Source: Botryococcus braunii
Taxonomy: Eukaryota > Chlorophyta > Trebouxiophyceae
Assembly: GCA_002005505.1 (NCBI GenBank)
Contig: MVGU01001180.1
Span: 20,001 to 84,000, forward strand
Length of the DNA: 64,000 nt
Direction: 5' to 3'
The position numbers and the translations under genes were made by a program. Shown here one piece after another: positions 23,520 through 44,727 of the stretch (the first letter of the stretch is position 1; each line of letters starts with the position of its first letter). Below the pieces are notes generated by a model. That model was not told the DNA's origin. It ran no database searches and worked only from the letters and a program-made list of their open reading frames with translations.

Positions 23520-23984
23520 TGTCGTAGAATGCACAAGTTAGAGAGAATTTCCAAGTTGTGAGAGAGAGAGAGACAAGGCCGGATGGCCGACAAGTTGGAC
23601 GCTCTTTCCAATTACAAGTAACCCCCACCTCACGGAGCTTCCACTCCCTACTTGTGGTCTACTAAGCTTCCAGATTACCTGAGTGCGTGTCTTCCCGTGG
23701 CTTACGTCTCTATCCGTTCCTTCCCGTGGTTCGTGATCGTGTGTTCACGTTCCTCCAATGGTAGCGCACTAGTCCACCAAACCTCTACAATAGTATCTAG
23801 AAAATATCCTAGAATCCTACTATGAGAGTAACGTCCATAACTATCCAATGGAATTCGACGGCTAGGAAGCCAAGGCTAGACGCTAGGCACGTGCGTACTC
23901 GCGTTGCTCGTACGACATGTGCGCCTAGGCTCGGGGGTAAGGGAAATGTCTAGAAATGCCGGGAAATCCCTACATTCCATCACA
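23520..23984 (-). repeat. Gypsy-A2 3' LTR, 465 bp
   Basis: Plus-strand ends TGTCGTAGAATG and CCATCACA. The polypurine tract (plus-strand TCATCCCCCCCTT) abuts it at 23985-23997. Confidence 0.96.
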
Positions 23985-24949
23985 TCATCCCCCCCTTAAT
24001 TCCTGCATGTCCTCATGCAGCCACATACACACATACAGTAGACCACAATTATAAGGGAATGGTCGTCACCGAACGGCCCATCCACCAGCGCCGTTAGACC
24101 CTTGCCGAATGGGTTACATTAGGGTCCCCGCCTCCAAGTTATTCCCCTATCATCCCAAGCAATTGACTAAAGCGTCCATTTTTTTTTTTGTTTTTTTTTT
24201 AATTTATTTATTAGGTGTGCTTTATTTTAGTCCTAAGTACAATACTGTACGATACGATACGACACGGTACGATAATTACGATAAATTACGATAAATTACG
24301 GCGAACTACGACGAACGTTCGCCTTATTCCTTTCGAACTATGCAAGTCCGCCTTTATTGACACATCCCTATTTATTATTTATTAAAACAATACAATGCTT
24401 GTGACACAACCGATAAACAATCCGAACAAGATAAATATGACACAGGTGTAGCTCAGTCCACAATGCTTCCCTAAAGTGGCTATCCATACAACACAGTTTC
24501 TTTATGATACATTGTCCATACTGTACACATACTGTACACATAAGGTACACATATAGTACATAGAAAGAAATCCATCCCAAGATGCCGAGTAGTCCATATC
24601 CAAGGGTTCCAAGTAGCCCATAGCCAAGGGTTCCAAGTAGCCCATAGCCAAGGGTTCCAAGTCACTTCTGTACTTCAAGCCCACGTCCCAAGTGCTAGTT
24701 AAGCAGACTGCGGTTGCGCGCCATGTGTACTTCAATTCCTATCCCTGAATGCAGAACCCCGAGTTCAATGCATCGAAGCGGTATGAGGCCTCATGCCACA
24801 CATACCGAGGTAGGCAACCTACCCCGTCCCTTGTCCCAAAGTACACAAGATATACAGTCCCTACCATAGGTCCCGTCCCATGTATTCCCAGACACCAGGT
24901 GGGAACTCCACAAGTGGAATGAGGGGGACAACCGTCCGGAGGGGCCCGT
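23985..24949 (-). other. Gypsy-A2 3' untranslated region
   Basis: Holds the polypurine tract, a T-rich run (24178-24200), a short TACGA-type array (24247-24300), GTACAC-rich sequence, and about three 24-bp units (24580-24662). No convincing coding. Confidence 0.75.
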
Positions 24950-27900
24950 TCAAGGGAAGGTGTCGCGCAGCGCCACCTGGTCCCAAATGGGCGGGGCGAG
25001 CCCCTGGAGTCTATGATAGGTATTAACCAGCCCGGGATGGGTCTCGAATGCCTCTTGAGATTCCCATGAGTCCTCTGTGGCCCCATGGCCTGCCCACTTT
25101 ACAAGGTACTCGAGAAAGGGTGTGCCATCCTCAAAATGGTAGGAGAACCCATCCTTGTCGTGCAACAGCCGGTGATCGACTAGTGCATCCACTACCCACT
25201 CCAGGTGAGTGGTGCCATCCGCTTTGGTGATGACTTTTGGGGGGCAGTATCCACGCGACTGCGCCTCCTCACGTGTCCAGTATGGCTTCAAATAGCAGAC
25301 ATTTATGCGGGGGTGGATGTCCAGCCGGTCCGGAAGATCCAGTGTGACGAAGTTAACGTTGTCGGGCGTGACCGCCATGACCCTGAAGGGTCCCACGTGC
25401 CTGGGTTGCAGCTTGCTGAATCTGTTTGAAGTTAGCGTGGGGGCCGCACGGGTTGAAAGGAGGACATAGTCCCCTTCCTGGTAGATGGCCTCCCTCCTAT
25501 GCCGGTTGGCATAGGCCGTCTGACGGTCTTGAGCTGCACGCAAACACTTCCTTGCAAGGGTGATTTTGTCTTGCATTTTTCTCATGAAGAGATCAGCCCT
25601 ATCCACCTTAGTGCCCTCCATGTGTCCCACCGCAAACGGTATATTTGGATCTTGCCCATATGTTAACCTGAAGGGTGTGGAGTTTAGGGAAGTTTGCCAA
25701 GAGTTGTTGTAGGCAAATTCCGCCACTGAAAGGTAATCCTCCCACTCCCTTGGGTTATCCTTGACATAGTGTTTCAAAAAATCTTCCAAGATCCTATTCA
25801 CCCGTTCCGTTTGACCATCTGACTGAGGATGATATGCCGTAGTTCGAGCCGGCTTGCACCCCGTCAGACTTAGAAGTGTGTTCATGAAATTATTCACAAA
25901 CCGAGGATCTCGGTCCGAAACAATTTCTTCAGGGAAACCGTGATACTTCCATACTTTATCCCTCATCAGAACAGCAACTTCATAAGCATCTGCATTGGTA
26001 GTGGTAGGGGCAAAGTGGGCACATTTGCTCAACCTGTCAACCACTACCCATATTGCGTTATGCCCGTGTTTGCTTTTAGGCAGTCCCGTGATGAAATCCA
26101 TTGAGATGCTTTGCCATTTCCTTGTGGGGATTTGTAAAGGGTGTAAGAGTCCTGCGGGTAACTGGTTTGAGGCCTTCACCCGCTGGCATGAATCACAATA
26201 CTTCACATACTCCCGCACATCCTCCGCCATTCCCGGCCACCACCAGTCCCGCTTCACTAGATCATACATCTTCGCAAAGCCTGGATGACCAACAGAAGGA
26301 GGTTCATGCAAAGCTTTCAATATGTCCTGCCGCAGATTCCTAGCAACTGGACCTTCCTTATCCCGGACTTCATAAAATGCAGGCACATATTTTCTTCCCT
26401 CCCTTCCAAATTCCCAAACCCCGTCCGTAAAGTGAACTTTTCTCCTATTTGCCCTTGTTCCCAACCACGAATCATGTGCGTAAGCACCCTTCAACAATTC
26501 CAAGAAGGTGTCACACCCGTCAGACCCGAGGGTGATGGAGCCCGAGCGGGCCCTCCCGTCCCCATCCATCGAGGTTGCATTGGTCCCCTTCCCGGGGTTG
26601 GGCTCCGTGGAGACGTTGCGCTGCTGTTGTCCCTGGAGCTGTCCCTGGAGGACTGGGTTCCTGGACAACGCATCCGCAACGTTAGTCTTTCCAGGCTCCC
26701 AAACCCAAAGAATGTTGAACTCCTGCAACTTCTCAGCCCACCGTGCCCTCCGAGGGCTTAAACCAACCTGTTGCTGAAGAAAAGTGTTACACTTATGGTC
26801 TGTGGTGACAGTGACTTGTTTCCCTAGGACATAACATCTCCATTCCGTCAAGGCATACACTACAGCAAGTAACTCCCTCTCAGTTGCAGAATAGTTCCTT
26901 TCTGCACTATTGAGCTTCTTACTGTAATAAGCAATGACTCGACCTTCCTGCAATAGTACAGCGCCAACCCCAAAATCACTCGCATCACAAATTACCTGGA
27001 AGGGTTTACGAAGGTCTGGCAGTGATAGTATGGGTGCCTGTATTAATGCATCCTTGAGAGCCGCAAGGGCCTCATCTTGCTCCTTTCCCCAAGTCCAAGA
27101 ACTTTTGCTACTGGACAGTTTAGTCAAAGGTGCAGCAAGTGAGCTGAACCCCTGAATAAATTTTCGAAAATAATTTGCAAGCCCCAAAAATCTACGCACG
27201 TCGGTGACGTTTTGGGGTGTGGGCCAATCCTTGACTACCTCCACCTTTTGGGGGTCCACTTTCAGTCCATCCTTGCCAATGATATGCCCGAGGTATTTGA
27301 GTTCTGAGCATAAGAATTCTCATTTGGCAAGTTTTGCAAACAATTCCTTTTCCCGAAGGCGTTGGAACACCTTCCGAAGATGAGCATAATGCTCCTCTTC
27401 ATCCCGACTGAAAATTAGAACATCGTCAAGGTACACTACCACAAACCCTTCCCTTATGAAATCATGAAAGATTTCATTCATTAGGCGTTGAAAGGTAGCG
27501 GGGGCGTTGGTGAGTCCAAAAGGAAGCACTAAGAACTCATACAGCCCAAAGGGTGTACGAAACGCTGTTTTAGGAATGTCTTCCTCCTTTAGCCTTACTT
27601 GATGATAACCACTGAGGAGGTCCAGACTTGAGAAAATCTTAGCACCTTTAAGTTTATCAAGCAAGTCGTCTATGCGAGGGAGAGGGTACCTATCATGAAT
27701 GGTGATTTTATTTAATGCCCTGTAGTCTATAACCATTCGGTATGTGCCCTCCTTCTTCCTCACAAACAAGACCGGTGAAGCATATGGTGAACATGAGGGG
27801 CGTATGTGTCCCTTAGAAAGTAGTTCATCCACAGTTCGCTCACATTCCTCAGTTTCTTCCACGGACAAGCGGTAAGCAGGACGGTTTGGAGGAGTTATTC

Positions 27901-29110
27901 CTTCCTGCACATTAATAGTGTGATAGACTTGTCGGTGTGGGGGTAGTCCTGGTAGCCCATTTGGAAAAATGTCCTTGTACTCCCGGAGCAAGTGTGCTAG
28001 CCGCTCAGGCTTTTTAGCACAAATTTCCTCTAGAGGGTCCGAAGGCTTACCCGTGGTGACCTCGGATTCTCCCTCTTCCTCTTCCTTTTCCTCTTCCCTT
28101 TCCTCTTCCTCTTCCACTTCCTTCTCCACTTCTAGGCAACTCTCCATATCCGGGGCCGTGCCCGAGGTATCCCCCGGCGCAGAGTTGTGTAAGGAAGTCC
28201 CGGATGACTCCGTCGAGGGGTCGTCCATATCCACCAAAGGTGGCATCTCTTCCTGTTCATCCCAACCAACATGTTCATCCTTGGCCATGACATTGAACAA
28301 GCAGGTTTTCCAATGATCCCGTTTCCCTTTCCTGGTGTTTCCTAATTTGATTCCCCATCCCAACTTCTTTCCCAAGCCTTTTCCATGTTTGTTTAACAAG
28401 ACCCATTTGTTATTGTGTCTAATATGAGCCTTGCCAGCTCTCACATTAACATTAGCATGTCGTGGTGCTAGCCAATCCTGTCCCAAAATTATGTCAATTC
28501 CTTCCATTATTGAGTCACACACAAGAAAGGAGTGTCTCGTAATGATAGATGGAGCAAACCGGACACTCAAATCCACTTTCCCATTTGTGTGTGTTACTGT
28601 CCCATCAGCAAGTGTGACGGGTGAAGTCCTCTTGTTATACCTCAAACCTTGCAAAACTTTTTCCCGGACAAAAGAGTGTGTGGCCCCGGTGTCCATTAAA
28701 GCTTTACATTGTTGTCCCCTTGCCATGACAGGAAATGTGAGGTTAAGAGGTGCAGCACTTGACGTTGAACCCAACTGACAAGATGCTTTGGGTGCTGCAT
28801 AAGCTAAAACAAAGGAAAAAGGAAATGTACATTGCTGTCCTTGAAAAGAAAAGCATTCCCCTTTTGAGCCCCTAGCAAGAATTTTCAGGTTTGCGCGAGA
28901 GCGTAACCGCAAAAAGAAACTCCTACTTTTCCACACCTTCTGGCCTATCACAAAGCATGCACTGACTTGTGAGTTTTCTTTTCGTTCAGCAAGAAAAGAT
29001 TCAATACAAGTCTCAGCTTTGTGTTTGCCAGGAACAATCAGAGGTGTATTCCAACTTCCCAAGGACTTCTGAACAAGAAAAGTTAAATATGAAAAACAAA
29101 TTTCATTCAT
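24950..29110 (-). pseudogene. pol: Gypsy-A2 pol: protease, RT, RNase H, integrase, chromodomain (one nonsense codon)
   Basis: One frame from ATG at 29108-29110 to 24950 with a single TGA at about 27320, where Gypsy-A1 has the Cys codon of AKCEFLCSELKYLGH in the RT thumb region. Domains: protease [14 protein letters not shown] (about residue 140), glutamate-rich linker, RT with [29 protein letters not shown] and [11 protein letters not shown] (about 555), RNase H with CDASDFGVGAVLLQ, integrase with GHPGFAKMY, WWWPGMAEDV, SMDFITGLPKSKHGHN and SDRDPRFVNNF, then chromodomain EYLVKWAGHGATEDSWESQE. Pol starts two bases after the gag stop. The first 100 residues (to [17 protein letters not shown]) are unassigned, with a counterpart in Gypsy-C. 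Confidence 0.93.
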
Positions 29111-29112
29111 GA

Positions 29113-30351
29113 CTAATCTTGTTTAGGGCCCTTGCCCTTCCCTTTCCCTTTCCAATGTTTTCCCTTGTTAAATCCCTTAGGCCCAATGTGTGAGGGAGGT
29201 GAAACACCTTGCAGTGGTGCTGCCACTGGTTGATTGTTTCCTTGCCTCGGATAGAATCCAGGCTGAAAATTTGATGGGGTGTGCCCACTAGCTTGAGCTT
29301 TGGCAGCTAGATATTGCTTTTTAGCAACACACTGCCATGACTCGTGGCCTAGTTTATGACAAAAATAGCATTCCCTATCCTTTGGAATAGAGGTTCTAGA
29401 ATCAATTTTTCTCCCGGACCCAAAAGGGGGTGCTCCCACCAAACCCAAGGAAGGTGGTGCAGGGGGCTGTTGTTCCACCACTCCTGCTGCCACTTGAGGT
29501 GTCTGGGTGTAGACCCTCTTCCTCTTGGGTCCCTGTGCATCCACATATGTGCTTTTGAGACTTGCCTCATATTTAACAACATAAGTGCAAATGTCTTCCA
29601 GATCAGTGAAAGGACTGCCTGTTGCAGGGTTCACAGTGCATGCAAGTTTGAGAGGAGTATTAAGACCCTTGGTAAAAAGATGTAACTGGTCTTGCATGGC
29701 TATTTGATAGTCAACCTCTACATCTGCTAAGAGAGACATAAATCTTTCAATATATCTCTCGACAGTCTCATTTCCTTGAAAGACTTTGTCTAATTTTGCC
29801 CTGGCAATGGCCACTGTGTCTGTGGAATCATATCTTTTAACCATAAAAGTTTTAAAATCCTTCCATTCCAATGTATGCTCATGTATCCCTTCCTTTTCTA
29901 GTTTCCTTACATGTGTGTCCCAAACTTTTGTGGGTCTTTCTTCCATCAATTGCACTCCCAAGGCCACCCACTTTCCTGCAGGCACATTGGTTAGTTTTGC
30001 ATAGCCTTCCAACTTCCTTGCAAAATAGCAAAAAGATCCCCTCTTTCCCGAAAACAAAGAAGGAGGAGTTGCTCTTACTTGTCCACTAGGGCGAGGAGTC
30101 TCCTCCACCCCATCCCCTCCAACTTGCCTTTCGGCAAGAAGCTTTTCCTTAAATTCCAAAAATAACTGCTCCTTTATTTTATTGGTCAACTTGATCTTCT
30201 TTGTCTTTGGTGTGGACGGAGCGGGCGACGGATCGCGAGATGCCCCCTCCATCAAGTCCTCTACCAGCTCCCCTGAGCTTTCCAACGCTTCCAAAAATTC
30301 TCTTTCTTCCGAAGAAAGGTTTTTAAACTTCCCAGAAGAGGGCGGTGACAT
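29113..30351 (-). CDS. gag: Gypsy-A2 gag, 412 residues
   Basis: I take the start at [16 protein letters not shown] (ATG 30349-30351), which Gypsy-A1 shares; the frame is open further upstream but only through leader and LTR. It holds a retrotransposon gag core around [18 protein letters not shown] and [20 protein letters not shown], and a zinc knuckle [14 protein letters not shown] near residue 340, followed by a Gly-Lys-rich basic tail ending GKGKGPKQD. It ends TAG two bases before the pol ATG. Confidence 0.93.
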
Positions 30352-30453
30352 CTGCGGCCCACATATGAGAGTTAGGACCTTCCATCGAACGATCTCCCTC
30401 CTACGACTTTCCTCCTTCCACCACGCGAAAGACTTGCAGAGAACAATTCGGCA

Positions 30454-30467
30454 TCTCGCCGATACCA
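30454..30467 (-). promoter_or_regulatory. Gypsy-A2 primer-binding site
   Basis: TGGTATCGGCGAGA on the minus strand, two bases after the 5' LTR. The same 14 bases occur after the 5' LTRs of Gypsy-C and Gypsy-B2. It fits a tRNA ending ...CGCCGAUA-CCA, that is an acceptor strand AUCGGCG with the A1-U72 pair typical of initiator tRNA-Met. Confidence 0.85.
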
Positions 30468-30469
30468 GA

Positions 30470-30934
30470 TGTCGTAGAATGCACAAGTTAGAGAGAATTT
30501 CCAAGTTGTGAGAGAGAGAGAGACAAGGCCGGATGGCCGACAAGTTGGACGCTCTTTCCAATTACAAGTAACCCCCACCTCACGGAGCTTCCACTCCCTA
30601 CTTGTGGTCTACTAAGCTTCCAGATTACCTGAGTGCGTGTCTTCCCGTGGCTTACGTCTCTATCCGTTCCTTCCCGTGGTTCGTGATCGTGTGTTCACGT
30701 TCCTCCAATGGTAGCGCACTAGTCCACCAAACCTCTACAATAGTATCTAGAAAATATCCTAGAATCCTACTATGAGAGTAACGTCCATAACTATCCAATG
30801 GAATTCGACGGCTAGGAAGCCAAGGCTAGACGCTAGGCACGTGCGTACTCGCGTTGCTCGTACGACATGTGCGCCTAGGCTCGGGGGTAAGGGAAATGTC
30901 TAGAAATGCCGGGAAATCCCTACATTCCATCACA
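30470..30934 (-). repeat. Gypsy-A2 5' LTR, 465 bp
   Basis: Same ends and sequence as 23520-23984 by eye. Bounded on the right by the TATAG duplication. Confidence 0.96.
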
Positions 30935-31289
30935 TATAGTATTGCTCACAAAGACTGTGTGAGTAATTGTCTCGATCGATAAGTCAAGCTTCCCAAGTGT
31001 CAAGAGAAAATGTACGGCGGGGATGGCTTGGAACTGGATACTTCGAGTTTTCAACTGATTGGATTAACTGAGAGTCGCGATTGTTAAACTTGGCTTGATA
31101 GTAGCCTTCTTCCTCAATACCTTCTGGGCAAAAGTCTTCAAACACAATGATTCCCCGTTCAATAGCACGATTTACATTCTCAATAGGGACTTTGCCAGAC
31201 ACCCAATTATTGCATAGGTCGCAGTGGAAGTGCCCTTCGCGGAGCAAATTAAGCTCGTCGTCCGTCAATAGAGGTGGTCGTTGCTCCAT
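30935..31289 (-). pseudogene. Copia-A1 ORF0, N-terminal part (nonsense codon and insertion)
   Basis: ATG at 31287-31289 opens MEQRPPLLTDDELNLLREGH. An in-frame TGA at about 30984 replaces the Arg codon of EARLIDRD seen in Copia-A2. Gypsy-A2 then interrupts the frame at 30934. The frame is otherwise the same as the intact ORF0 at 32852-33472. Confidence 0.88.
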
Positions 31290-31308: not shown

Positions 31309-31309
31309 T

Positions 31310-31728
31310 TGTGGATCCTGCAAGATCCAGTTTGTATTTAATATTATAAATCACAGACGATGATACATATGCATGTGTCATCCAAGTAAGTAAATACTTT
31401 CAACATCAACAACATTGTATGATGGAAGCAGTTTAACAGGCCAGTCTGATCTCCTCTTGATCTGACACAATGCATCCACGATGCCAACAGAGATGAGAGT
31501 TAATTGAGATCAGGCTGAGAGTCAGTGTTTGAGACAACAAACAAACACAACGGATTGACTAACACTGGGTAGTATACGACACTGGTCTATCTAACGATTA
31601 CCTGCAAGATCCAGTTTGTATTTAATATTATAAATCACAGACGATGATACATATGCATGTGTCATCCTGTGCATGTTACACAATCAGTATCTTGCTGGTA
31701 ATTCAAATGCGGTTACTTGTCTGCAAAC
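31310..31728 (-). repeat. Copia-A1 5' LTR, first segment
   Basis: Starts TGTGGATCCTGC on the plus strand and breaks at CAAAC (31724-31728) where Copia-A2 inserted. It continues at 45869. A 9-base deletion near 31541 (loss of AGACGTTTC between ACAA and ACAAACAC) distinguishes it from the 3' LTR. Confidence 0.93.
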
Positions 31729-31930
31729 TGTTGGAATTTGTGTACTGTCAAGACAATCCAAGGATGACAAATTTTAACCTGAATAAATTAGCTGTATAGT
31801 TGACAATGTGTTCAACTCAAAGGAAACTCTTTGATAAACAGCCAGTGGCCTTTATGGCCACAAGTAATAATGGATAAAGTATTTCAGAACATGGTAGAGA
31901 AGGACTTTCCTGTTGTTTGTGGCTATTAAA

Positions 31931-31971
31931 ATTGAGTTTATCCTAATTGTTAATAACGTGATAAACTCAAT
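31931..31971. repeat. 12-bp inverted repeat in Copia-A U3
   Basis: ATTGAGTTTATC (31931-31942) and GATAAACTCAAT (31960-31971) are perfect reverse complements with a 17-base AT-rich loop. It is kept in all Copia-A LTRs seen (for example 18607-18647). It could be a paired protein-binding site in the promoter or a hairpin; the function is unknown. Confidence 0.7.
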
Positions 31972-32101
31972 TGGGATAAGGGCCAATTTCCAAGGCTCTG
32001 AACCTCAACTCTGATACGAATTCATGAAAAAAGGGCCAGAACAGCGCAAGTCAACGCGCTGGTCTGATAATACTAGGAGCGACTGACCGAAGTCTCAAGA
32101 A

Positions 32102-32530
32102 GTCAATCCGTTGTGTTTGTGAAACGTCTTTGTTGTCTCAAACACTGACTCTCAGCCTGATCTCAATTAACTCTCATCTCTGTTGGCATCGTGGATGCAT
32201 TGTGTCAGATCAAGAGGAGATCAGACTGGTGAGACGCACGTTTGTCGCTTACGTTATTCTAGCAGCCGTAAGTGCTGGTTTATTGAGTTTAACTAAGAAA
32301 GTATTCTTGGTAATGTGCAGGCCTGTTAAACTGCTTCCATCATACAATGTTGTTGATGTTGAAAGTATTTACTTACTTGGTAAGCAGTTTACGCTGCACG
32401 TTGGTTTGCAGACAAGTAACCGCATTTGAATTACCAGCAAGATACTGATTGTGTAACATGCACAGGATGACACATGCACATGTATCATCGTCTGTGATTT
32501 ATAATATTAAATACAAACTGGATCTTGCAG
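32102..32530 (+). repeat. Copia-A leader copy 1, unspliced (two GT-AG introns)
   Basis: Exon-like block A is 32102-32228 (127 bp). Gap 1 is 32229-32320 (92 bp, GTGAG...GTGCAG). Block B is 32321-32379 (59 bp). Gap 2 is 32380-32465 (86 bp, GTAAG...CACAG, with a CTGAT branch-like word 20-25 bases from its end). Block C is 32466-32530 (65 bp). It is followed directly by GTAATC. The 3' LTR has the same at 45139-45567, and Copia-A1 has it reversed. Blocks A, B and C recur without gaps at 32573-32823. Confidence 0.93.
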
Positions 32531-32823
32531 GTAATCGTTAGATAGACCAGTGTCGTATACTACCCGGTGTAAGTCAATCCGTTGTGTTTGTGAAACGTCT
32601 TTGTTGTCTCAAACACTGACTCTCAGCCTGATCTTAATTAACTCTCATCTCTGTTGGCATCGTGGATGCATTGTGTCAGATCAAGAGGAGATCAGACTGG
32701 CCTGTTAAACTGCTTCCATCATACAATGTTGTTGATGTTGAAAGTATTTACTTACTTGGATGACACATGCATATGTATCATCGTCTGTGATTTATAATAT
32801 TAAATACAAACTGGATCTTGCAG
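32531..32823 (+). other. predicted third intron spanning spacer and spliced leader copy
   Basis: Starts GTAATC immediately after block C of copy 1 and ends TTGCAG at the end of block C of copy 2; length 293. Removing it together with gaps 1 and 2 would give A-B-C joined to the 8-base U5 and the primer site, exactly the sequence of copy 2 plus U5. This is an inference from sequence only. Confidence 0.6.
32573..32823 (+). repeat. Copia-A leader copy 2, spliced version of copy 1
   Basis: Blocks A (32573-32699, 127 bp), B (32700-32758, 59 bp) and C (32759-32823, 65 bp) are joined without the two gaps, each the same length as in copy 1 and nearly identical in sequence. It is followed by GATCCACA, the LTR end. 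Confidence 0.93.
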
Positions 32824-32832
32824 GATCCACAA

Positions 32833-32850
32833 TGGTTATGGGCCCACGCC
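32833..32850 (+). promoter_or_regulatory. Copia-A2 primer-binding site (half-tRNA type)
   Basis: TGGTTATGGGCCCACGCC, one base after the LTR. Complementary to the anticodon arm of initiator tRNA-Met. ORF0 begins one base downstream. Confidence 0.9.
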
Positions 32851-32851
32851 C

Positions 32852-33472
32852 ATGGAGCAACGACCACCTCTATTGACGGACGACGAGCTTAATTTGCTCC
32901 GCGAAGGGCACTTCCACTGCGACCTATGCAATAATTGGGTGTTTGGCAAAGTCCCTATTGAGAATGTAAATCGTGCTATTGAACGGGGAATCATTGTGTT
33001 TGAAGACTTTTGCCGAGAAGGTATTGAGGAAGAAGGCTACTATCAAGCCAAGTTTAACAATCGCGACTCTCAGTTAATCCAATCAGTTGAAAACTCGAAG
33101 TATCCAGTTCCAAGCCATCCCCGCCGTACATTTTCTCTTGACACTTGGGAAGCTAGACTTATCGATCGAGACAATTACTCACACAGTCTTCGTGAGCAAT
33201 ACTATACGTTAGCTAGATACGAAATTCCCTTAGATTTTTCCCATCATTGTCTTCTCATTGAATTTGCAACACTCCTTGCATTAAGTAGAGGAGCGAATGT
33301 ATCGTTAAGTCCATGGCTTTTACGAGACGAATCACCATATGAATCATTGAAGGAGAAACTTGCTGAGACAATCAATTCCATTGGCCGTGATCTAGAAAAC
33401 AATTCAGAGCAAAGGTGCAGGTGCTACATTCCCAGGCATGGCAACATTGGGCACGAACCCTACCCCAGGTGA
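32852..33472 (+). CDS. Copia-A ORF0, unknown 206-residue protein before gag
   Basis: ATG at 32852, one base after the primer site, to the stop at 33470-33472. It holds a short Cys/His cluster HFHCDLCNNW near residue 22, acidic and aromatic stretches (FEDFCREGIEEEGYYQAKF), a helical middle (HHCLLIEFATLLALSRG) and a Cys-rich end (QRCRCYIPRHGN). It overlaps the gag start by 35 bases in the frame one base behind. Copia-A1 carries the same frame, so it was present in the common ancestor. Most Ty1/copia elements have no frame here. I do not recognise it. It could be a matrix-like N-terminal gag, fused by frameshift or splicing, or a separate accessory protein. Confidence 0.75.
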   Translation: MEQRPPLLTDDELNLLREGHFHCDLCNNWVFGKVPIENVNRAIERGIIVFEDFCREGIEEEGYYQAKFNNRDSQLIQSVENSKYPVPSHPRRTFSLDTWEARLIDRDNYSHSLREQYYTLARYEIPLDFSHHCLLIEFATLLALSRGANVSLSPWLLRDESPYESLKEKLAETINSIGRDLENNSEQRCRCYIPRHGNIGHEPYPR

Positions 33473-36400
33473 TTTATCCAATCCACCATCAAATCCACCC
33501 AACCCTTCAGCTGGCATTACTAGTCAGTCTGCCCAGTCAGGTAATAGCATAGATCAGACAAACCCTGTTTATACTAATCTAAAACTGGTTCAGGCTTTAG
33601 ACCTGGATTGTGAAAACGGTTTTAGATGGCAGAAAGATGTTCTAAATGTTGCTAATAGCAAACGTATTAGGATGTGTCTCGATGAAGAACATCCTAATAC
33701 AGCAGGGGACTCTCTTGCTATGAGTCTTCTAACTGAGAAAATCCCTGACGTTTGGGTGGACAGGGCATTGGATATGCCAAACGCAAAGCAGGCGTATGAT
33801 TGGCTGCTGCGCAAGTTCACTGGTGGCCACAATGAGGAGTTAATGAGAAAATGGTCCAAGGTCTTGGACTATGGGCGTATCAGTGAGGGTCAGGAGTACC
33901 ATTCATATGTTGCTAGGAAGTTCAGGATTGCAAGGGGTCTACAAGCCAATAATCACCCATGCTCTGATGGTAGGCTAAAAATGGGGATTGCAGAGGGTTT
34001 GCCTAAGCATTTTGACCATGCCAAATCCAATCTCTACACCTCCTGCCTTGGTGAGGATGAGGACAAGGTCACACTCAATATTCAGGCATGTTCAAGGTTG
34101 CTTGGAATTGATGAATTTAAGGCCCCCTCACCATCAGTCAATCTGATCAATCCAGTCAGAGGTCCCCCTCGTCCCAGGAACGCTCCAGGATCCAGGCCAC
34201 AAGGGATGCCAGAAGATCTGCCTGACAACTTCAGGGGCTGCTGGCACTGCTTGGAAGATGGACATACCAGAAACGTGTGTCCAAAACTTATAGCTGAGAA
34301 AGAAAAAAGGGCTGCCCTCATTTCAGCACGGATGCATCGGATGAATCCAGCCAATCCAGTTGGAGGTATTGCATTGGGGGACTCTTCTGACTCAGGTAAT
34401 CCATTCTCTAGATGGGTGGTAGACTCAGGAGCCTCAAAACACATATGCAATGATGTTAGACTCATGCAAAACATTCACTGGTATACACAGCCAAAGGGTC
34501 TAAACTTGGCAACTGGTGAACATGTTGCACAACGCAAGGCATGTGGTTGTGTGTGCTGAGTAGATGAAATGGGGAACATGTGTAAACTTAAAAATGTAAA
34601 GTATGTACCTACTGCTATTGAAAATTTGTTGTCGGTCTCCAGTGCAGTAACAGATGGCATCATGTTTACAAACAATTCACATGCAGAGATTATCAGTATG
34701 TACAGCAATACTTCAAAATTCATCTCTGAAGTCAGAAAAGAAAGAGGACTGTATTTTGTTTACTGCCTGTGCTGCAAAATTCAGCTCTCACATAGTGTTG
34801 GATACGCTCACAAATGCTCTGAATATGATTTGTGGCATCAACGCTTGGGACATCCAGGAAGTAAAAACCTGGAACGACTGCAGACTGAGGATATGGTGAA
34901 GGGAATAGCTACATCTCTGTCTCCTTGCTTACATGGTCATTCACTGTGTGATGTGTGTGTGATGGGCAAGCAGACTAAAGAGAGCTACCAAAGATCCCCA
35001 GTATCAGCAACTGAACGTCTTCAGCTGTTGCACTTGGATGTAATTGGTGAGCTACCAATTCCAGGAGCTGAGGGTGAACGCTACATGCTCACAGTACTAG
35101 ACGATTACTCTAGAGCTGGTGAATCCGTAGCATTGACTTCCAAGTCCCAGGTGGGTGGTGCTGTTAAGTCAATCATCCTGTACTTGGAAAATCAGACTAA
35201 TCACAATGTTAAGGTGGTTAGGTCTGATAGGGGAAGTGAGTTTGTAAATGCTGACTTGCTTGACTTTTTTCAGTCTAAAGGGATCAGACATGAAACGTCT
35301 GCTCCTTATACCCCTCAACAAAATGGAAGAGCAGAACGTTTTAACAGATCCTTGAAGGAGAAAGTTAGAATGCTTCTTTTGCAGGCAAAAGCTCCACAGA
35401 GCATGTGGGCGGATGCACTTCCAACAGCTGTGAGGTTGTTAAATCTCAGAGCAGTAAAGGGAAAGACAGCCACTCCCTATGAACTGCTGTTTGGGAGGAA
35501 ACCATCAGTGCACTACTTAAGAGTGTGGGGATGCTTGGCGTTTATCAAAATACCAGATAAGGATCTGTCAGCCTTTTCGGCTAGATCTGAGGCTGGGATG
35601 TTTGTGGGATATGAGCCTGCATCAAAGGCCTACAGAGTTAAGGTGGGGAACAAGGTAAAGGTGTCAAAGAACGTAAAATTCTTTGAAGACAAATTAGGAA
35701 TTCATGCTCTCACTCCCAGTAATTCTCTTTCTGCTGAATTCTCCCAGGAGATAAATTTTGATCAAGTTCCATGCACTGATGATGGGGATGATTGGGATTT
35801 TGTACCGGTAGACCTCACTGGTGCATTGGAATTAAACAGGGAAGCTGGAAGGGGTATTGCCACAACTCTCCCAGCTAACATGGAAGTCATGCACAGGATA
35901 AATGATATCCTGAGAGGCTTGGGAACAGTGGAAGAGAGTGGTCCGAGTGGGTTATCTGGGCCAGGAGCTCCAGGGGAAGGAGTAATGGGCACTGGGAACA
36001 TGCAAAATCCAGTGTCACATGCACCAGACAGTTCAGGTGAAGAATCAGATAATCAACCTCCTGCTGAAACCAGTGACTCGTTTGAGGAAATGCAAGGTGG
36101 TGCCAGGAATGGTGGAGGTAGATACGAACTGAGGCAAACGTTGGCAGAACCAGACATGTATGTTCCGGGTACATACCACATTGGGGAAGCGCCAGTCACA
36201 CATGCATCAGAAATAATCCCTCCAAATCAAAATGGTGCACAAGAGCAAGTGAAATTATCATCCAAGAATATCAAGGTTCCAGAGGACTGGTGGGAGGCTA
36301 AAAAATCCCCACAGTGGCCATACTGGTTAGAAGCCATGAATGAAGAGATGGATTCTATAGACTCTCATGAAACGTTTGAATATTGTGAGAGACCCTCTGA

Positions 36401-36969
36401 TGCCAAAATTATTCCTTTAAAATGGGTCTATGCTCTAAAGACAGACAGTTTTGGTGATATTGTCAGATTTAAGGCGAGAATGGTGGCACAAGGTTGCAAG
36501 CAAAGGCCAGGTGTTGACTACTTTGAAACCTTCGCTCCAGTAAGTACACACACATCTAGGAGGGTGCTGTTAAATCTGGCTACGTCAAATGGGTGGAAAG
36601 TTCACCAAGTTGATGTGAAAACAGCATTCCTAAATGGAACACTGGATGAGGAAGTGTATGTAGCCCAACCTCCCTGTTTCTTTAATGGCGATTCTAATGT
36701 TGTGTGCAAGCTACTAAGATCTTTGTATGGTCTGAAGCAAGCACCACGTGCATGGCACAAGTGTCTGGTTGAAGAGCTTGGAAAATTTGGGTTTATAGCC
36801 TGTCAAAGTGATCCAGCGCTCTTCATCAACAAGGAGTCATTCAAGTCATACGTATACTTGTTGGTATATGTGGATGATTTGCTGATTGTGAGTGAGGATG
36901 TGGAATGTATTCAGTGTGTTAAGCAACAGCTGACTAGTATATTCTCAATTCACGATCTTGGTGAGATAA
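33438..36969 (+). pseudogene. Copia-A2 gag-pol, gag to RT (nonsense codon, then split by Gypsy-C)
   Basis: Starts MATLGTNPTPGDLS. Zinc knuckle CWHCLEDGHTRNVC, protease WVVDSGASKHICND, then TGA at 34557-34559 where Copia-A1 has TTA (Leu of CVCLVDEMG). The frame continues through integrase (WHQRLGHPGSKNLERL, SDRGSEFVNADL, PYTPQQNGRAERFNRS) and RT (HQVDVKTAFLNGTLDEEV, LVYVDDLLIVSED) to GEI, where Gypsy-C enters. The remaining RT codons resume at 43845. Confidence 0.93.
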
Positions 36970-37267
36970 TGTAACAGGAAAAGTCGCGTGTTATAGGAAA
37001 ATGACCGGACCACGAGGATTTGGACCTCCATAAAGGTCCCTTCGTGAGTTATGTTCCTCCACGCCAAGAAGTGGCTACTTCACGCGCCAAGGGAGTGACC
37101 CTTACTTGACAAGGCGCATTGGCGATGGAGACAGGGACACACTTAGAACAGGATAGAATAAGGCTTTGGCAGAGGAAGGACCGGGCCGGACTGGACGGGT
37201 ACTGAGGTGGAGCCCAAACAACTTGTAACCATTGTTTTCGCATCCTTTGGCCGTTTCTACTGTATCA
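36970..37267 (+). repeat. Gypsy-C 5' LTR, 298 bp
   Basis: TGTAACAGGAAAAG...TCTACTGTATCA. Same length and sequence by eye as 43542-43839. Confidence 0.97.
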
Positions 37268-37268
37268 C

Positions 37269-37282
37269 TGGTATCGGCGAGA
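37269..37282 (+). promoter_or_regulatory. Gypsy-C primer-binding site
   Basis: TGGTATCGGCGAGA one base after the LTR. The same 14 bases as in Gypsy-A and Gypsy-B2, although the surrounding sequences and LTRs are unrelated. Confidence 0.88.
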
Positions 37283-37483
37283 GGGGCCAAATTTTGAGCT
37301 CCTCTCGTTGAAAAAATTTCCCAAAGAAGTTTTTCAGAGAATTCTATAGATTCGGATTGGGTTAGTTGTGGTGTGTGTGGCGCTTTTAGGGGCCTACGAC
37401 TCGGGTCACCGAGTTTAGGGCCCCCACCCGGACTTTCTCGATTTCCTGTGTCACCGAGCCTCGCCAGCACTGACAGCTCAGAA

Positions 37484-38815
37484 ATGGCTAGACGACAAGT
37501 CGAAGAGCTGCAGGCTGCTTTGGCCGAGGCCGAGGGGCGTGAAGCGGCAATGGCTGCCGAACTGGCTGAGTTACGACAACAGGCAGAAAACGCTGAAGTT
37601 GCGGCTCAAAACCCCGCGAACCCACAGGCAAGAATCCCGACCGTTCGAACCCACTTACCGGAAAAATTCGAGGGACGCAGGGACGATCTCGAACAATTCC
37701 TAGACGATGTGAGGTCATATTGTGAACTCACCGGTGTGCCCGCGAACCTCAGGGTTGACTACGCAGTGCGCTGCTTAGGAAAGAGCGTGAAAAAGGTGTG
37801 GTTAACAAAAAAAGCAGCTTACGTGAGGCAAAATCCAGGTGCTGTCGTGGATTTAGCTCTCTTTGGGGATCTGTTGTCTTCTGTCTATGATAACACTGAT
37901 AAGGTTGCAAAGGCAAGGGATAAACTTGATTCCGTATATCAGGGCAACGAATCAGTTGAGAAGTATGTTGAGCGCTTTACAACCTTGCTAGCAGAGGTAG
38001 AAGTCAGTGGGGACCTATCCATGGGGGAGAAAATCCATAGGTTTCGTAAAGGCCTACGTGAGGATTTAAAGAAATATTCAGCAATTAACCCTACAACAGG
38101 CAAAGGTTTTGATGATTTGGATGCCTTGATAAGTTTACTCACACGGTACGATGCCGCGGTGGGCGGGCCCTTACAGGCAAAGAGACTGAGAACCGGCCCC
38201 GGGGCCCCTAACTCAAGCATTGCAACCGCCACCGTTGGCCCAGCACCGCACGTTGCTGGCGTCGGACAGGACTGGACAATCCCCTACTACAGTCATGAAT
38301 TTGGGATGATGGCAGCTGCACCGATGGTGGCAGCGCCAATCCAGATGGCCCATGGTTACCCTGCGCCGCTCGCCACGGTCGCCGCGATCCAAGGCGCGAC
38401 TCCTTATCCCCGCAGGGATGGTTTACCTCCCGAGTATCGGAGGGACACTAGAGTTGCCTTTCCCCTCAACAGAAGCTGTTACGCGTGCAATACCCCTGGC
38501 CATGAATCTTGGTTTTGCCCACTCAAAAAACTTAGAGAGGACCCTAACGCCTATCTTAATCAACAACAGTGGGACATCTTGCAACACATTGTGAAGGCCA
38601 GACAGGAGGTAAACCAGCCTGCTCCACCAATTCCAGGTCTGGCTGGTGATTTGCTGCGGCGACGGGTAGGAGGGGGCCACAACAACTTTAGGTCCCTCGG
38701 TGTGGGAGCAGCCCCTATGCAAGGGTGGACAGCACAGGGTGGGGCCGGACGGGGACGGAGAATCAGAGGACGGGGCCGTGGACGGGGCCGGGCAAGGGGA
38801 CGCGGTAGGCCATGA
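37484..38815 (+). CDS. gag: Gypsy-C gag, 443 residues
   Basis: The start is the first ATG of the frame (MARRQVEELQAAL). The N-terminus is a coiled coil of Ala, Glu and Leu. The core has PEKFEGRRDDLEQFLDDV, VDYAVRCLGKSVKKVWL and LDSVYQGNESVEKYVERF, typical of retrotransposon gag. A Pro/Ala-rich spacer follows, then zinc knuckle CYACNTPGHESWFC and an Arg-Gly-rich tail (GRGRGRGRARGRGRP) that could bind RNA. The stop overlaps the pol start as ATGA. Confidence 0.94.
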   Translation: MARRQVEELQAALAEAEGREAAMAAELAELRQQAENAEVAAQNPANPQARIPTVRTHLPEKFEGRRDDLEQFLDDVRSYCELTGVPANLRVDYAVRCLGKSVKKVWLTKKAAYVRQNPGAVVDLALFGDLLSSVYDNTDKVAKARDKLDSVYQGNESVEKYVERFTTLLAEVEVSGDLSMGEKIHRFRKGLREDLKKYSAINPTTGKGFDDLDALISLLTRYDAAVGGPLQAKRLRTGPGAPNSSIATATVGPAPHVAGVGQDWTIPYYSHEFGMMAAAPMVAAPIQMAHGYPAPLATVAAIQGATPYPRRDGLPPEYRRDTRVAFPLNRSCYACNTPGHESWFCPLKKLREDPNAYLNQQQWDILQHIVKARQEVNQPAPPIPGLAGDLLRRRVGGGHNNFRSLGVGAAPMQGWTAQGGAGRGRRIRGRGRGRGRARGRGRP

Positions 38816-41800
38816 GTGGAGTTAGAGAAGGAAACCTCCACACTTTTGTTCCTTGGGAATCTTTTCATTCTTCTATCGAGCAACGTTGTTCTGAGTTTTT
38901 GCATTGTTCTTTTTCTAGAGGCCCCTTTGACAATACCCTACCCGATGGAACGTCTAAACCGACATTTGTTGCAGTACCTATAGGTAAAGCGGAGGACACC
39001 TTATCCACTTTCGCTCGTGAGCAACAAGCAAATAAACATTTAAGTGCTTGTTTTCTAATGGGTAGTAAAGTGGCGAAATCCAAGGCAGTGTACCCATGGC
39101 TAAAAGGCATGAGAGTTATCCTGCAAGGTACCAAGGGACCTGATGTCCCCTACTCCTATGTAGTTTACCATGCCGGACCCAAATTTAGCGTATCTTTTGC
39201 TCAAGCTTTTTCAAATAGGCATTTAGCAATGCTTTTTCATGTTAACTGTACTGGTGTGAAGGGCGTCGCTTTAGTCGATACCGGGGCGACGCACTCGTTC
39301 GTCAGACATGACTTCCTAGCTACTCTCGGAGTGAGGCTGTCAAAGAAGTGTGTGGATGTCCAGCTTGCAGATGGGCAGACCATGCGCTCGGCGGGGACAG
39401 CTAAGCTCAGGGTGCACTTATCTCAAACATATGTGGAACAGAGGGATTTCATTGTCTGCGAAACTCTGTTGGATGGGGTGGACTTAATCCTTGGTGAGGA
39501 TTTTCTGAAAGAAAGAAAAGCGTTAATTGACTACAATCATGGCGCAGTTCATCTTAAACCGCCTCATTCCTCACACTACATTACACTCCTCAACCCGCTG
39601 CCCCCTAGTGAAAGAGGTACCTTACCGGCGCAAAAAGTAAATGTTATAAGTGAGGGTCAAGCTAGGCGGGCTATGCGAAAGGGTTGTCCAGGGTTTTGGG
39701 GGGTAGTGCGAGAGGCAAGGAGTGGACAGGACTCAGTTTGTGCAACACACTATCTCCATAGGGTTGCAGTGGCAACTACAGAGGGGGATAATCCTTGGGA
39801 CGAAGACAGCGGAGCCACCGGCCTAGATTTAAACGAAAACTCCCGGCGTGTTATTGAGGGTATGACTGACAAGCCACAAGACTTGAAGCAATTGTTGTTA
39901 GAGTTTTTGGATGTTTTTCCAGAGAAATTGCCAGATTTACCTCCAGACAGGGGCATCTTGCACACTATACCTATGACACCCGGCCATACGCCGCCCTGTC
40001 GCCCCACTTATAGGTTGGCTGAACCAGAAGTGGCGGAGTGTCGGAGGCAGGTTGAGGAATTACTAGCACAGGGTTTCATCAGGCCGAGTGCATCACCGTA
40101 TGGTAGCCCCATATTGTTTGTGAGAAAGAAAGACGGAACATTCCGAATGGTTATAGATTACAGGGCAGTTAATAACTTAACAAGGAAGGACAAATATCCG
40201 TTGCCACGGATAGACGATCTTCTGGACAAGCTGCAGGGTTCAAAGTTCTTTACCTCTTTTGATCTCTTGTCAGGTTACCATCAAGTGCGATTACATGAAT
40301 CCGATGTTCCCAAAACCGCCTTTAGAACACCCTTAGGTTCATTTGAATTTTTGGTGCTTCCTTTTGGTCTCACGAATGCTCCCTCCACGTTTCAGAGACT
40401 GATGAACAGTGTGTTTCATGATTTTATTCGAGAGGGTTTTGTTGTGGTTTACCTAGATGATTTGTTGGTATACAGCAAGTCCAGGGAACAGCACTTAGAG
40501 CACTTAACTCGCATCCTTACTCGGCTGAGAGAGGAAAAACTTTATGCAAAATTATCCAAGTGTGAGTTTTTTGCTGACGAGTTGCGGTATTTGGGACATG
40601 TCGTGGGGCGCGACGGCATCAAAGTTGACCCTGCCAAAGTTCGGACTATTGTGGACTGGCCAACACCCACGGGGAGCACGCACGTACGACAATTCTTGGG
40701 ACTAGCCAACTACTTCCGCAAGTTCGTCCCGGGTTACAGTACGCTTGCGGCCCCCTTAACCCGGCTCACTGGCAAAGTTCCTTGGACGTGGGGAGAAGCT
40801 GAAGAGCACGCGTTTCAAAGTTTAAAAGAAACTTTGTCCAATGCTCCTGTACTAGCACTCCCAGACAGTAGCAAGCCTTTCAAAGTGATCTCAGATGCCA
40901 GTGACTATGGGGTGGGTGCAGTACTATTGCAAGAAGGTAGACCTGTAGCATACTTCAGTAAAAAGCTTAGTAATGCCGAACGCAATTATTCCACAACTGA
41001 GAAAGAGCTTGCAGGTGTGTTGTATGCCCTCAAGGAGTGGAGGTGTTACTTATTAGGGCAAACTTTCACAGTTGTTACGGACCATCGCGCGAATAGTTTT
41101 TTGCAAACCCAAACCCTACTCTCACCCAGACGGGCGCGCTGGGCGGAGTTTCTACAGTTATTCGACATCCAATGGGAATATGCGCCGGGATCCACTAACC
41201 CTGCTGACCCATTGTCTAGGAGTCCTCACTTAGCCGGGGCCCACGTCCGAGCCCTAGCTCGGGCCCAGGCTGGGGTTCAGGCGTCGGTTCAGGCTAGGGC
41301 AGGGCCCCTGGGGGAGCACTCTCCCCCTGTCGGAGTAGGAGCGATGGGGGTTGGGGAGGCTGCAGACTCCACCACCCTACCCACGTCGATGGACGGGTTG
41401 AGGGGATGGGGAAGGGTTTTAAGTGAGGCATATGAGATAGATGATTGGCTCCATCGTAAACAAAATCGCCGCAAGTTAAGCTTCCATAGTGGCTTGTGGA
41501 AGCGCGGTGCGCGCATTTACGTTCCCTCCCACCATATGAGTTCTGACGGTGTCGAACGTAACCTTCGTAGAGAAATCCTGGAAAATTTGCATGGACCACC
41601 TATAGTTGGTCATCCAGGCAGGGACAGGACCCTCGAATTAGTTCAACGTTCCTGGTGGTGGCCAGGGATGGCCGCAGATGTGGCTGACTTTGTGGCCCAA
41701 TGTGACTCGTGTCAGCGTGTCAAAGCCCCAGCACACTTACCTGCAGGGTTACTACACCCTCTAGAAATACCTGACAGAAAGTGGCAATCAATGTCTATGG

Positions 41801-42957: not shown

Positions 42958-43541
42958 TGCTCTGGCAGGTCGGGTCGGCCCCTCGGTACGTCCTTGGGCC
43001 ACCTTGGAAGCTCTAAGCTTGGCCCTTAGAGTGTACCCTGGGGGTATCCCAGTACTAGAGCGCACTCGGATGAATAGGACGTAAGCGGGGTAGAATGTCT
43101 ACCTCGGGTGCGTGCGGTGATGACCGCTCACCCTGGACAGGACTCGTCGAGGTAGGGTGTCGTCTACCTCGGGTGCGTGCGGTGCTGACTGCTCACCCTT
43201 GTCAGGTTTCGGACGTCAAGCATGTAATGTCGCGACATCCGTGCTAGCTCGCGCTGTAGCGTAACGCCCGACGCAGATGGGTGGCCCCACTGCCGTTGGG
43301 AAGAATTCCTATTGGACAGGACGGGCGAATTTATGTATGGACGGGACAGATTTTACATTGTTATACGGACAGGGCTGGACAAGACAGGACAGGGGTCTGG
43401 CTTGGGCTGGGGACGCCAGACTAGTACCCCCGGACAGGACGTGACAGGACCGTACCTCTGCCAAGTGTGTTAGGTGCGTAGTGTAGTTGTTTAGAGTGAG
43501 TCTCCCTCTTGGCCGTGACGTCCAAGCTAAGGGGGGGAGGG
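42958..43541 (+). other. Gypsy-C 3' untranslated region with polypurine tract
   Basis: Contains two diverged copies of a CTACCTCGGGTGCGTGCGGTG phrase (43100-43120 and 43159-43179), GGACAGGAC-type short repeats, and the polypurine tract AAGGGGGGGAGGG (43529-43541) touching the 3' LTR. No coding seen. Confidence 0.8.
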
Positions 43542-43839
43542 TGTAACAGGAAAAGTCGCGTGTTATAGGAAAATGACCGGACCACGAGGATTTGGACCTC
43601 CATAAAGGTCCCTTCGTGAGTTATGTTCCTCCACGCCAAGAAGTGGCTACTTCACGCGCCAAGGGAGTGACCCTTACTTGACAAGGCGCATTGGCGATGG
43701 AGACAGGGACACACTTAGAACAGGATAGAATAAGGCTTTGGCAGAGGAAGGACCGGGCCGGACTGGACGGGTACTGAGGTGGAGCCCAAACAACTTGTAA
43801 CCATTGTTTTCGCATCCTTTGGCCGTTTCTACTGTATCA
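43542..43839 (+). repeat. Gypsy-C 3' LTR, 298 bp
   Basis: Same ends and sequence as 36970-37267 by eye. GATAA follows at 43840-43844. Confidence 0.97.
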
Positions 43840-43844
43840 GATAA

Positions 43845-44347
43845 AGTCATTTTTGGGCTGTGAAATCAAGATAAATGAATCCTCACAAACTCTGAAAATG
43901 ACCAATGTCCTGAAAATTGAGAAATTGGTGGAAGAGTATGGGCTGCCTGATCAGGGGAAGGAGGTTGATACACCCATGTCAGGTTCCTTCTTGCCTACCC
44001 AAATGCCTGAACCTCCTAAAGGGATGACTGGAGAGCAGATTGGATCAGGAATTCCCTTACCAGAAGGTCACAGGTATTTAGAATTAATTGGTTCACTACA
44101 GTATTTGTCAACAACTTCAAGGCCTGATATTTCTCAAGCTGTGGGGATGTTGAGCAGATTTAGAGGACAGCCAACAACATCCCATTGGAATGGAGCAATT
44201 AGAGTACTGAGGTACCTCAACTGCACCAAATACATGGGAATTAAGTATACTGGATCAAATAAAATGAACTGGTATGCTTTGTGGATGCAGATTTTGCAGG
44301 TGATCTGGACAGTAGAAAATCCACAACTGGGTTTGTGTTTCCATTGA
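43845..44347 (+). pseudogene. Copia-A2 RT end
   Basis: Continues from the codon interrupted by Gypsy-C: KSFLGCEIKINESSQTLKM, then the RT connection region (RYLELIGSLQYLSTTSRP, SQAVGMLSRFRGQPTTSHW). It runs into the same out-of-frame end (NKMNWYALWMQ) as Copia-A1. Confidence 0.92.
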
Positions 44348-44727
44348 ACGGGTCTGCTGTATCCTGGTCAAGTAAGAGGCAAACTTCCATAGCAACATCC
44401 ACTGTGGAGTCTGAATACATTGCTGTAAGTGCAGCAGTGAAAGAAGCCATGTGGGTGGGAAGTATGCTCTGTGAGTTGGGAGAAGAGATCACATGTGTAA
44501 CCATGTATTGTGATAATCAGGGGTGTGTGTCAAACCTGAGAAATCACATGGTCTCTAAACACACTAAACACATCAGTGTGAGTTACCATCATGCACGAGA
44601 GAAGGTGGTTTGGGGTCAGGTTGATCCTACATATGTGCCAACTACTGAAAATGTAGCTGACATGTTCACAAAGCCACTAGCATCTACTGTGTTTGAAAGA
44701 CATCGTAACATGTTGGGAATGCAGTAA
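44281..44727 (+). CDS. Copia-A2 RNase H, in the -1 frame
   Basis: DADFAGDLDSRKSTTGFVF, STVESEYIAVSAAVKEAMWV, CDNQGCVSNLRNH, NVADMFTKPL. Open to its stop at 44725-44727. Overlaps the preceding frame by 67 bases, exactly as in Copia-A1. Confidence 0.88.
   Translation: MDADFAGDLDSRKSTTGFVFPLNGSAVSWSSKRQTSIATSTVESEYIAVSAAVKEAMWVGSMLCELGEEITCVTMYCDNQGCVSNLRNHMVSKHTKHISVSYHHAREKVVWGQVDPTYVPTTENVADMFTKPLASTVFERHRNMLGMQ

Follow-up and report, generated by a model that had tools for sequence, protein, structure and literature searches.

According to the usual account of long terminal repeat (LTR) retrotransposons, reverse transcription uses an unspliced RNA as its template, and R and U5 are inherited colinearly. 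HTLV/BLV and the spumaviruses carry a splice donor in R, and their splicing begins inside the 5' LTR; the RNA that they reverse transcribe is unspliced and U5 is copied from the genomic U5. Here we describe E2, a Ty1/copia element found in 64,000 nucleotides of the Botryococcus braunii genome (contig MVGU01001180.1, positions 20,001 to 84,000; hereafter the window, with positions counted from its first letter). Each LTR of E2 holds an unspliced and an exactly spliced copy of the same leader, and comparison with its relatives, which we call Fam1, indicates that this LTR is very probably rebuilt through splicing at every replication cycle. Fam1 would resemble HTLV/BLV and the spumaviruses in splicing from inside the 5' LTR, and would differ from them in its spliced template and its rebuilt U5.

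By their features, Fam1 elements are likened here to the Osser-type hemivirus Ty1/copia elements, Osser being an element of the green alga Volvox. They share an integrase located before RVT_2 and a primer site complementary to the anticodon arm of tRNA-Met. A half tRNA-Met primer is described for Osser, Bryco, and part of Gymco-II (PMC6317226), and the sections of that paper dealing with these elements mention neither introns in the LTR nor a duplicated leader. The plant elements Ogre and EVADE are LTR retrotransposons with functional introns that survive retrotransposition, as Fam1 elements would be; unlike in Fam1, no LTR intron figures in the passages devoted to them (PMC12786077, PMC6317226). 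According to a summary in PMC12786077, removal of an artificial intron from a marked Ty element revealed its RNA intermediate. There the intron is lost once for good, whereas in Fam1 introns and spliced copy coexist and are both inherited. As outlined in PMC3182074, split-intron retroviral vectors (Ismail et al. 2000) have a donor between U3 and R of the 3' LTR, which reverse transcription copies to the 5' LTR, so that the daughter transcripts are spliced. From that outline, these vectors differ from Fam1 in being man-made, in having the acceptor downstream of the packaging signal and in rebuilding no spliced copy within the LTR. We found no description of an LTR carrying introns beside its own spliced copy in the full-text literature of PMC, in which subscription journals are mostly absent.

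Two copies of a leader in one LTR

E2 sits inside the 5' LTR of E1, an older minus-strand Fam1 copy. The Fam1 features of the window are the following:

31729–45868, plus strand: Copia element E2 (Fam1); LTRs of 1103 bp; flanked by the 5-bp target duplication CAAAC
31729–32831, plus strand: 5' LTR of E2, 1103 bp, TGTTGG..CCACA, 99.4% identical to 44766–45868
31729–32101, plus strand: U3 (promoter part), with GATAATACTAGG about 25–36 nt 5' of exon A
32102–32228, plus strand: exon A of copy 1, 127 bp, with which the duplication begins; 32102 is the putative transcription start
32229–32320, plus strand: intron 1 (i1), 92 bp, GTGAGA..GTGCAG, borders conserved across subfamilies
32321–32379, plus strand: exon B of copy 1, 59 bp, identical to 32700–32758
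32380–32465, plus strand: intron 2 (i2), 86 bp, GTAAGC..GCACAG, borders conserved across subfamilies
32466–32530, plus strand: exon C of copy 1, 65 bp, ending TTGCAG^GTAATC (^ marks a border), one mismatch to 32759–32823
32531–32572, plus strand: spacer, 42 nt; TGTAA at 32568–32572, directly 5' of A', is the putative polyadenylation [poly(A)] signal
32573–32823, plus strand: copy 2, made of A' (32573–32699), B' (32700–32758), and C' (32759–32823), with exact joins at the intron borders
32531–32823, plus strand: putative intron 3 (i3), GTAATC..TTGCAG, comprising the spacer and the entire spliced copy; its splicing is predicted
32824–32831, plus strand: LTR tail GATCCACA (end of U5)
32832–32850, plus strand: primer binding site region, containing GGTTATGGGCCCAC
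44766–45868, plus strand: 3' LTR of E2, same anatomy as the 5' LTR, with TGTAA at 45605–45609
17737–18839, minus strand: 3' LTR of E1, same anatomy, with TGTTA replacing TGTAA at the spacer end
31309–31728, minus strand: inner part of the E1 5' LTR, separated from the outer part by the E2 insertion
45869–46548, minus strand: outer part of the 5' LTR of E1

The order in Fam1 LTRs is U3 - A - i1 - B - i2 - C - spacer - A'B'C' - GATCCACA. The two copies in the 5' LTR of E2 differ by one mismatch in A and one in C, and B is unchanged. An earlier note on this DNA had delimited the blocks and gaps of both copies, and its coordinates, lengths, and GT/AG borders are all correct to the base. It ascribed the pattern to all four LTRs of the family in the window. 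Three are complete and carry it (31729–32831, 44766–45868, and 18839–17737 on the minus strand); the fourth is split by the nested element, and its two parts (46548–45869 and 31728–31309, minus strand) jointly carry the same blocks. Splicing followed by reverse transcription, which that note invoked for copy 2, remains its best explanation. Copy 2 lies between the spacer and GATCCACA and is not followed by an A-run such as the poly(A) tail that a processed retrocopy would carry. Overlooked at that time were a third donor/acceptor pair (32531 GTAATC / 32823 TTGCAG) and the TGTAA at 32568–32572. The acceptor of this putative i3, at 32823, falls inside the LTR and not in the internal region. In U3, GATAATACTAGG is intact in 11 of 13 aligned LTRs, the other two having one or two changes.

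Concerted evolution of copies 1 and 2

Fam1 sites were collected from the 176-Mb assembly, whose contigs are labelled by C-numbers (the window is C324:20001–84000), with junction patterns allowing up to three mismatches; the most diverged relatives escape such patterns, and variation at the pattern bases is limited. The spliced junction between A and B was found at 82 sites and the unspliced junction between i1 and B at 88. Controls gave 0 matches, which rules out chance as the origin of the leader copies. An unspliced site lies 328–402 bp upstream of 71 of the 82 spliced sites. The remaining 11 correspond to five spliced-only sites, two split by an insertion (C324 and C414), two on C44, where the acceptor mismatched the pattern (the one C44 LTR retrieved is standard), and two truncated sites (C48 and C161). 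Block mapping, which covered the sequence around part of the sites, resulted in 71 chains: 55 standard LTRs, 5 spliced-only LTRs, 2 triples, 1 unspliced-only LTR, 4 pieces of two split LTRs (E1 of the window and C414), and 4 truncated LTRs (C385, C161, C477_77459, and C605). The standard LTRs comprise 54 tabulated ones and that of C434, whose diverged i1 is below the BLAST threshold; among them, C477_54737- has its exon A cut by another repeat and C454_115409+ ends at the contig end. Within the 71 chains, no complete LTR has just one of the two introns, either through a loss in copy 1 or through a gain in copy 2. On C2, an array of about 24-bp units (positions 351–921 of the piece starting at C2:24061) stands directly before a Fam1 LTR.

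The intron borders are conserved. In relatives about 18% diverged in exon A, GT and AG occupy the same places in nearly all LTRs, as expected from the gap borders pointed out in the earlier note; the exceptions are single-site changes, or gap length changes in C463_83556 and C18_390222. The 54 tabulated LTRs have the borders GTGAGR/GTGCAG and GTAAGC/GCACAG with rare changes (e.g., GCACAT in C264_837+). Nearly all of them also keep the i3 borders, TTGCAG^GTAATC at the end of copy 1 and TTGCAG^GATCC at the end of copy 2, as well as the TGTAA at the spacer end, which C324_38839- and C25_721310+ do not have.

The two copies of one LTR are alike. They mostly show 0–2 differences per 251 nt. LTRs of a divergent clade stand at a median of 37–43 changes (of 251 nt) from the others, yet at 0–10 between their own copies, and each of the C164 LTRs has 0/251. 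Minor states and discordances were counted in 53 of the 55 standard LTRs (without C477_54737- and C454_115409+). The 77 minor exon states, each present in at least two LTRs, account for 495 instances in both copies, 11 in copy 1 only, and 10 in copy 2 only; four of these states are never present in both copies of one LTR. Among 157 distinct discordances between copies (bases and gap columns), four recur in a second LTR. Between a clade of 9 LTRs and one of 44, 24 exon differences are nearly fixed. At these the two copies agree with at most one LTR deviating, and this holds also for the first base of exon B and for bases 2–3 nt from its end. The mismatch rate between copies is even along the leader (A 0.0073, B 0.0058, C 0.0076). 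In a quick tree of 50 LTRs (additionally without C14_297979+, C152_206980+, and C48_408390-, which have indels), copies group by element or subfamily: 34 changes of the copy label are required (27 on average after shuffling), and a single-lineage clade of copy 2 is rejected (p-AU 1e-55).

Eleven elements with two standard LTRs and equal 5-bp flanks allow a comparison with the time of insertion. They show 26/5517 differences between copies 1 and 2 and 26/5517 between 5' and 3' LTRs. In all 11, no copy difference is common to both LTRs; therefore, the copies were most simply identical at insertion in every case. As no copy difference predates insertion and discordances hardly ever recur, copy 2 appears to be remade in each replication cycle. 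The earlier note called the spliced copy fixed inside an LTR, but none of the 11 testable elements has a copy difference older than its insertion. This test and the concerted evolution of the copies reject a one-time spliced copy frozen in the LTR. Indirectly, these data disagree with canonical colinear inheritance of R and U5, copy 2 tracking the copy-1 exons both across lineages and from insertion to insertion. From these sequence comparisons, the LTR anatomy and the apparent renewal of copy 2 at each cycle are well supported.

A proposed replication cycle and its alternatives

We propose the following cycle. In the 5' LTR, transcription would begin with exon A, at its first base, and the 5' end of the RNA would be spliced three times (i1, i2, and i3) to give A-B-C-GATCCACA followed by the primer binding site, the splicing of i3 taking out the spacer and the old spliced copy. 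UGUAA is reported as the poly(A) signal of chlorophytes in PMC1868727 and PMC4025486, the latter placing it at -28 to -5 relative to the RNA 3' end. The TGTAA at the spacer end would direct 3' cleavage within A', between a few and about 28 nt from its start and ahead of the i3 acceptor; with the placing in PMC4025486, the RNA of E2 would end at roughly 45614–45637. The RNA end would repeat the same few to about 28 nt as the RNA start, which would constitute R, and the leader copy at the RNA 3' end would remain unspliced. A tRNA-iMet fragment would prime reverse transcription of the spliced leader, and the resulting strong-stop cDNA (251+8 nt) would pair via R with the RNA 3' end and be extended through the spacer, C, i2, B, i1, A, and U3. 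The predicted product, U3-A-i1-B-i2-C-spacer-A'B'C'-GATCCACA, is exactly the LTR observed. Copy 2 of the daughter would be a cDNA of copy 1 in the mother's 5' LTR, and copy 1 of the daughter would come from the mother's 3' LTR.

Several properties of the LTR follow from this cycle. Exon C must end in TTGCAG because this end would serve as donor context in copy 1 and as acceptor in copy 2. Retention of i3 combined with a jump to A' would add a unit per cycle, so that a stable structure asks for i3 splicing. In the 3' LTR, the i3 acceptor would lie beyond the cleavage site, and the poly(A) signal there could not be spliced away. Location of this signal inside an intron would also allow the skipping of the 5' LTR signal.

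The rare LTR forms are of three kinds. Both LTRs of C35 (97234/102912), both LTRs of C322 (96291/109480), and C25:781505, whose U3 is cut, are spliced-only. The C35 and C322 insertions both have the target duplication GCCAC; since their flanks differ, they are two insertions, and the common GCCAC could reflect chance, a site preference, or descent from one spliced-only mother. A jump to A rather than A' would be expected to yield LTRs like those of these two insertions and one more. The triples, C261:164426 and C228:131052, carry the intron-bearing unit of about 470 bp twice, followed by the spliced copy. End-joining of unspliced strong-stop DNA was considered for them and dropped, the LTR about 6.1 kb upstream (paired by distance) being standard. 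The solo LTR C102:116836 (minus strand, target duplication CTTCC) has both introns and is devoid of spacer and copy 2: C joins GATCCACA directly, and the i2 acceptor reads CTTG instead of CAGG.

Other observations weigh against a cycle through the spliced leader. The start site, the poly(A) site, the splicing, and the jump are all inferred from sequence. In the assembly itself, a chlorophyte host is indicated only by TGTAA and by light-harvesting genes, which came as exon pieces and make a photosynthetic host likely; rbcL gave no match there. Some LTRs have more copy differences, for instance 10/250 in C228_124854+, which we take as a sign of age. One copy difference is common to two C14 LTRs lying 8 kb apart; the upstream LTR is cut there, and the base in question is foreign. 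Each triple lies about 6.1 kb downstream of a standard LTR, the triple form not being present in both LTRs. The five spliced-only LTRs, the two triples, and the unspliced-only C102 could equally derive from homologous recombination between repeated exons. The form U3-A-B-C-spacer-A'B'C' is seen in 0 of the 71 chains, and it is unexplained why i1 and i2 of the 3' copy are never lost; one idea is that RNAs spliced downstream of a stop codon might undergo nonsense-mediated decay. Finally, some other process might conceivably homogenize the copies in each cycle.

Among the alternatives, the one closest to the proposed cycle, and overlapping with it, is that copy 2 is remade each cycle via another route: either a spliced and an unspliced RNA are packaged together and the first jump takes place between them, or the RNA ends at a more downstream point of copy 2. 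This is doubtful, though it deserves some weight: the LTR and the concerted evolution that it predicts are the same, and the jump could occur within one RNA or between two, which sequence does not separate. The TGTAA just 5' of the second copy in three families (see below) favors an RNA end near the start of A'.

A second alternative seems improbable to us. One ancient event would have placed spliced cDNA in the LTR, with ordinary R-to-R inheritance since then, and gene conversion or template switching would have kept the copies alike. Repeats 471 bp apart can recombine, and the triples, the spliced-only LTRs, and C102 resemble products of exchange between A1 and A2 or between C1 and C2. However, the 11 of 11 elements without a pre-insertion copy difference would require conversion to be complete in nearly every cycle. 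Exons B (59 nt) and C (65 nt), which have introns at their borders in copy 1, match between the copies as well as A does, and even differences right at an exon border are common to both copies. Moreover, complete LTRs with one intron lost or gained number 0 among the 71 chains.

Tandem duplication followed by two intron gains in copy 1, or by two short element insertions, is barely credible: the gaps are short and have GT/AG ends, but two gains would be needed, both at the same places in both clades, and the concerted evolution would be left unexplained. Divergence does not decide this question, because likeness between clades (13 LTRs) overlaps for introns (i1 0.70, i2 0.76) and exons (A 0.82, B 0.75, C 0.84); the spacer and the last 118 bases of U3 both stand at 0.90. 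An assembly artefact can be practically dismissed: repeats do pose problems for assembly, but equal 5-bp flanks surround 11 elements and 5 solo LTRs, and the sole alike pair of outer flanks is C219/C469 (46/60 bases).

Related Copia families and coding content

Comparison of the window with itself identified two more Copia families, Fam2 and Fam3, each with RVT_2 and with a one-exon version of the same LTR plan. Their LTRs contain one i3-type intron only, with the plan GT..TGTAA..E'..AG. Their features in the window are the following:

56835–49696, minus strand: Fam2 element, target duplication CTTAC
56145–56835, minus strand: Fam2 5' LTR, 691 bp, with exon E at 56632–56491 and a putative intron GTGACT..ATGCAG at 56490–56170
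49696–50386, minus strand: Fam2 3' LTR, 100% identical to the Fam2 5' LTR
58556–63977, minus strand: Fam3 element, its 5' LTR lying beyond the window
58556–59247 (ends approximate), minus strand: Fam3 3' LTR, with exon E at 59044–58911 and a putative intron GTACGG..GTACAG at 58910–58583

The intron of the Fam2 5' LTR holds TGTAA (56316–56312) and an identical E' (56311–56170, 0/143), in the order E, GTGACT.., spacer ending in TGTAA, E', ATGCAG^GATACG.., then GGTTATGGGCCCAC. That of the Fam3 3' LTR holds TGTAA (58724–58720) and an identical E' (0/135), in the order E^GTACGG.., TGTAACGG, E', GTACAG^GGAAAG. In the flanks of retrieved loci, a second Fam2 copy has E equal to E' with four changes from the Fam2 of the window; in a Fam2b copy, whose E is clipped at the sequence end, the copies differ at 0/114. 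A second Fam3 copy is identical in E, and three Fam3b LTRs show 1–4/136 differences between their own copies and 34–36 from Fam3. All these added Fam2, Fam2b, Fam3, and Fam3b loci have AG^GT and AG^G borders. TGTAA lies 0–3 nt 5' of the second copy in Fam1, Fam2, and Fam3; in Fam2b, with its clipped exon start, it lies 32 nt before the aligned part.

Donor-side and acceptor-side sites, tallied separately over the whole genome (at most three mismatches; controls 0), number 514 and 551 for Fam2 and 888 and 924 for Fam3. Together with Fam1, copy-2 sites exceed 1,500 (551 + 924 + 82). A candidate further family is found on C414, where positions 419–688 of the piece starting at C414:34347 contain a 110-nt exact direct repeat; its first copy is followed by GTAAG (GT shared), and its second is preceded by TGTGTAA and followed by GTGGCC. 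The Gypsy LTRs of the window have no internal repeat of at least 80 bp according to the self-comparison. Two Gypsy copies (6276–13133 and 23520–30935) are about 97% alike, one of them lying inside E1, and a further Gypsy element with 298-bp LTRs (36970–37267 and 43542–43839) lies inside E2.

The coding frames of E2 are two:

33438–34559, plus strand: frame without Pfam match
34569–36974, plus strand: pol frame, ending at the inserted Gypsy element

The pol frame has the copia order gag_pre-integrs, rve (149–249), SH3 (308–375), and RVT_2 (601–800). Its integrase upstream of RVT_2, together with TG..CA LTRs and a short target duplication, classifies E2 as Ty1/copia. GGTTATGGGCCCAC follows the LTR in both Fam1 and Fam2. 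Its complement runs on as GTGGGCCCATAACCCACAGG at three exact places in the genome (14 with at most one mismatch; control 1), and the arm complementary to GGTTATGGGCCCAC is presumably the anticodon arm of tRNA-iMet.

We think it likely that replication with splicing inside the LTR as an obligate step is common to an entire group of algal Copia elements, which has more than 1,500 copy-2 sites in this genome. R would be discontinuous in the DNA, the strong-stop product would be a spliced cDNA, and every generation would re-encode U5 from a leader exon; the poly(A) signal would reside in an intron of the leader, and the end of this exon would act as a self-templating dual splice site. If this is true, the size of the strong-stop DNA would be diagnostic (about 259 nt if spliced vs. 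about 730 nt if unspliced), and the divergence between copies 1 and 2 would provide a second molecular clock for each insertion. These elements would also offer a simple natural answer to the question of how the poly(A) signal of the 5' LTR is ignored while that of the 3' LTR is used. Their LTR, with introns and spliced image side by side, would owe its inheritance entirely to the splicing of its RNA, which would be a new step in the copying of such elements.
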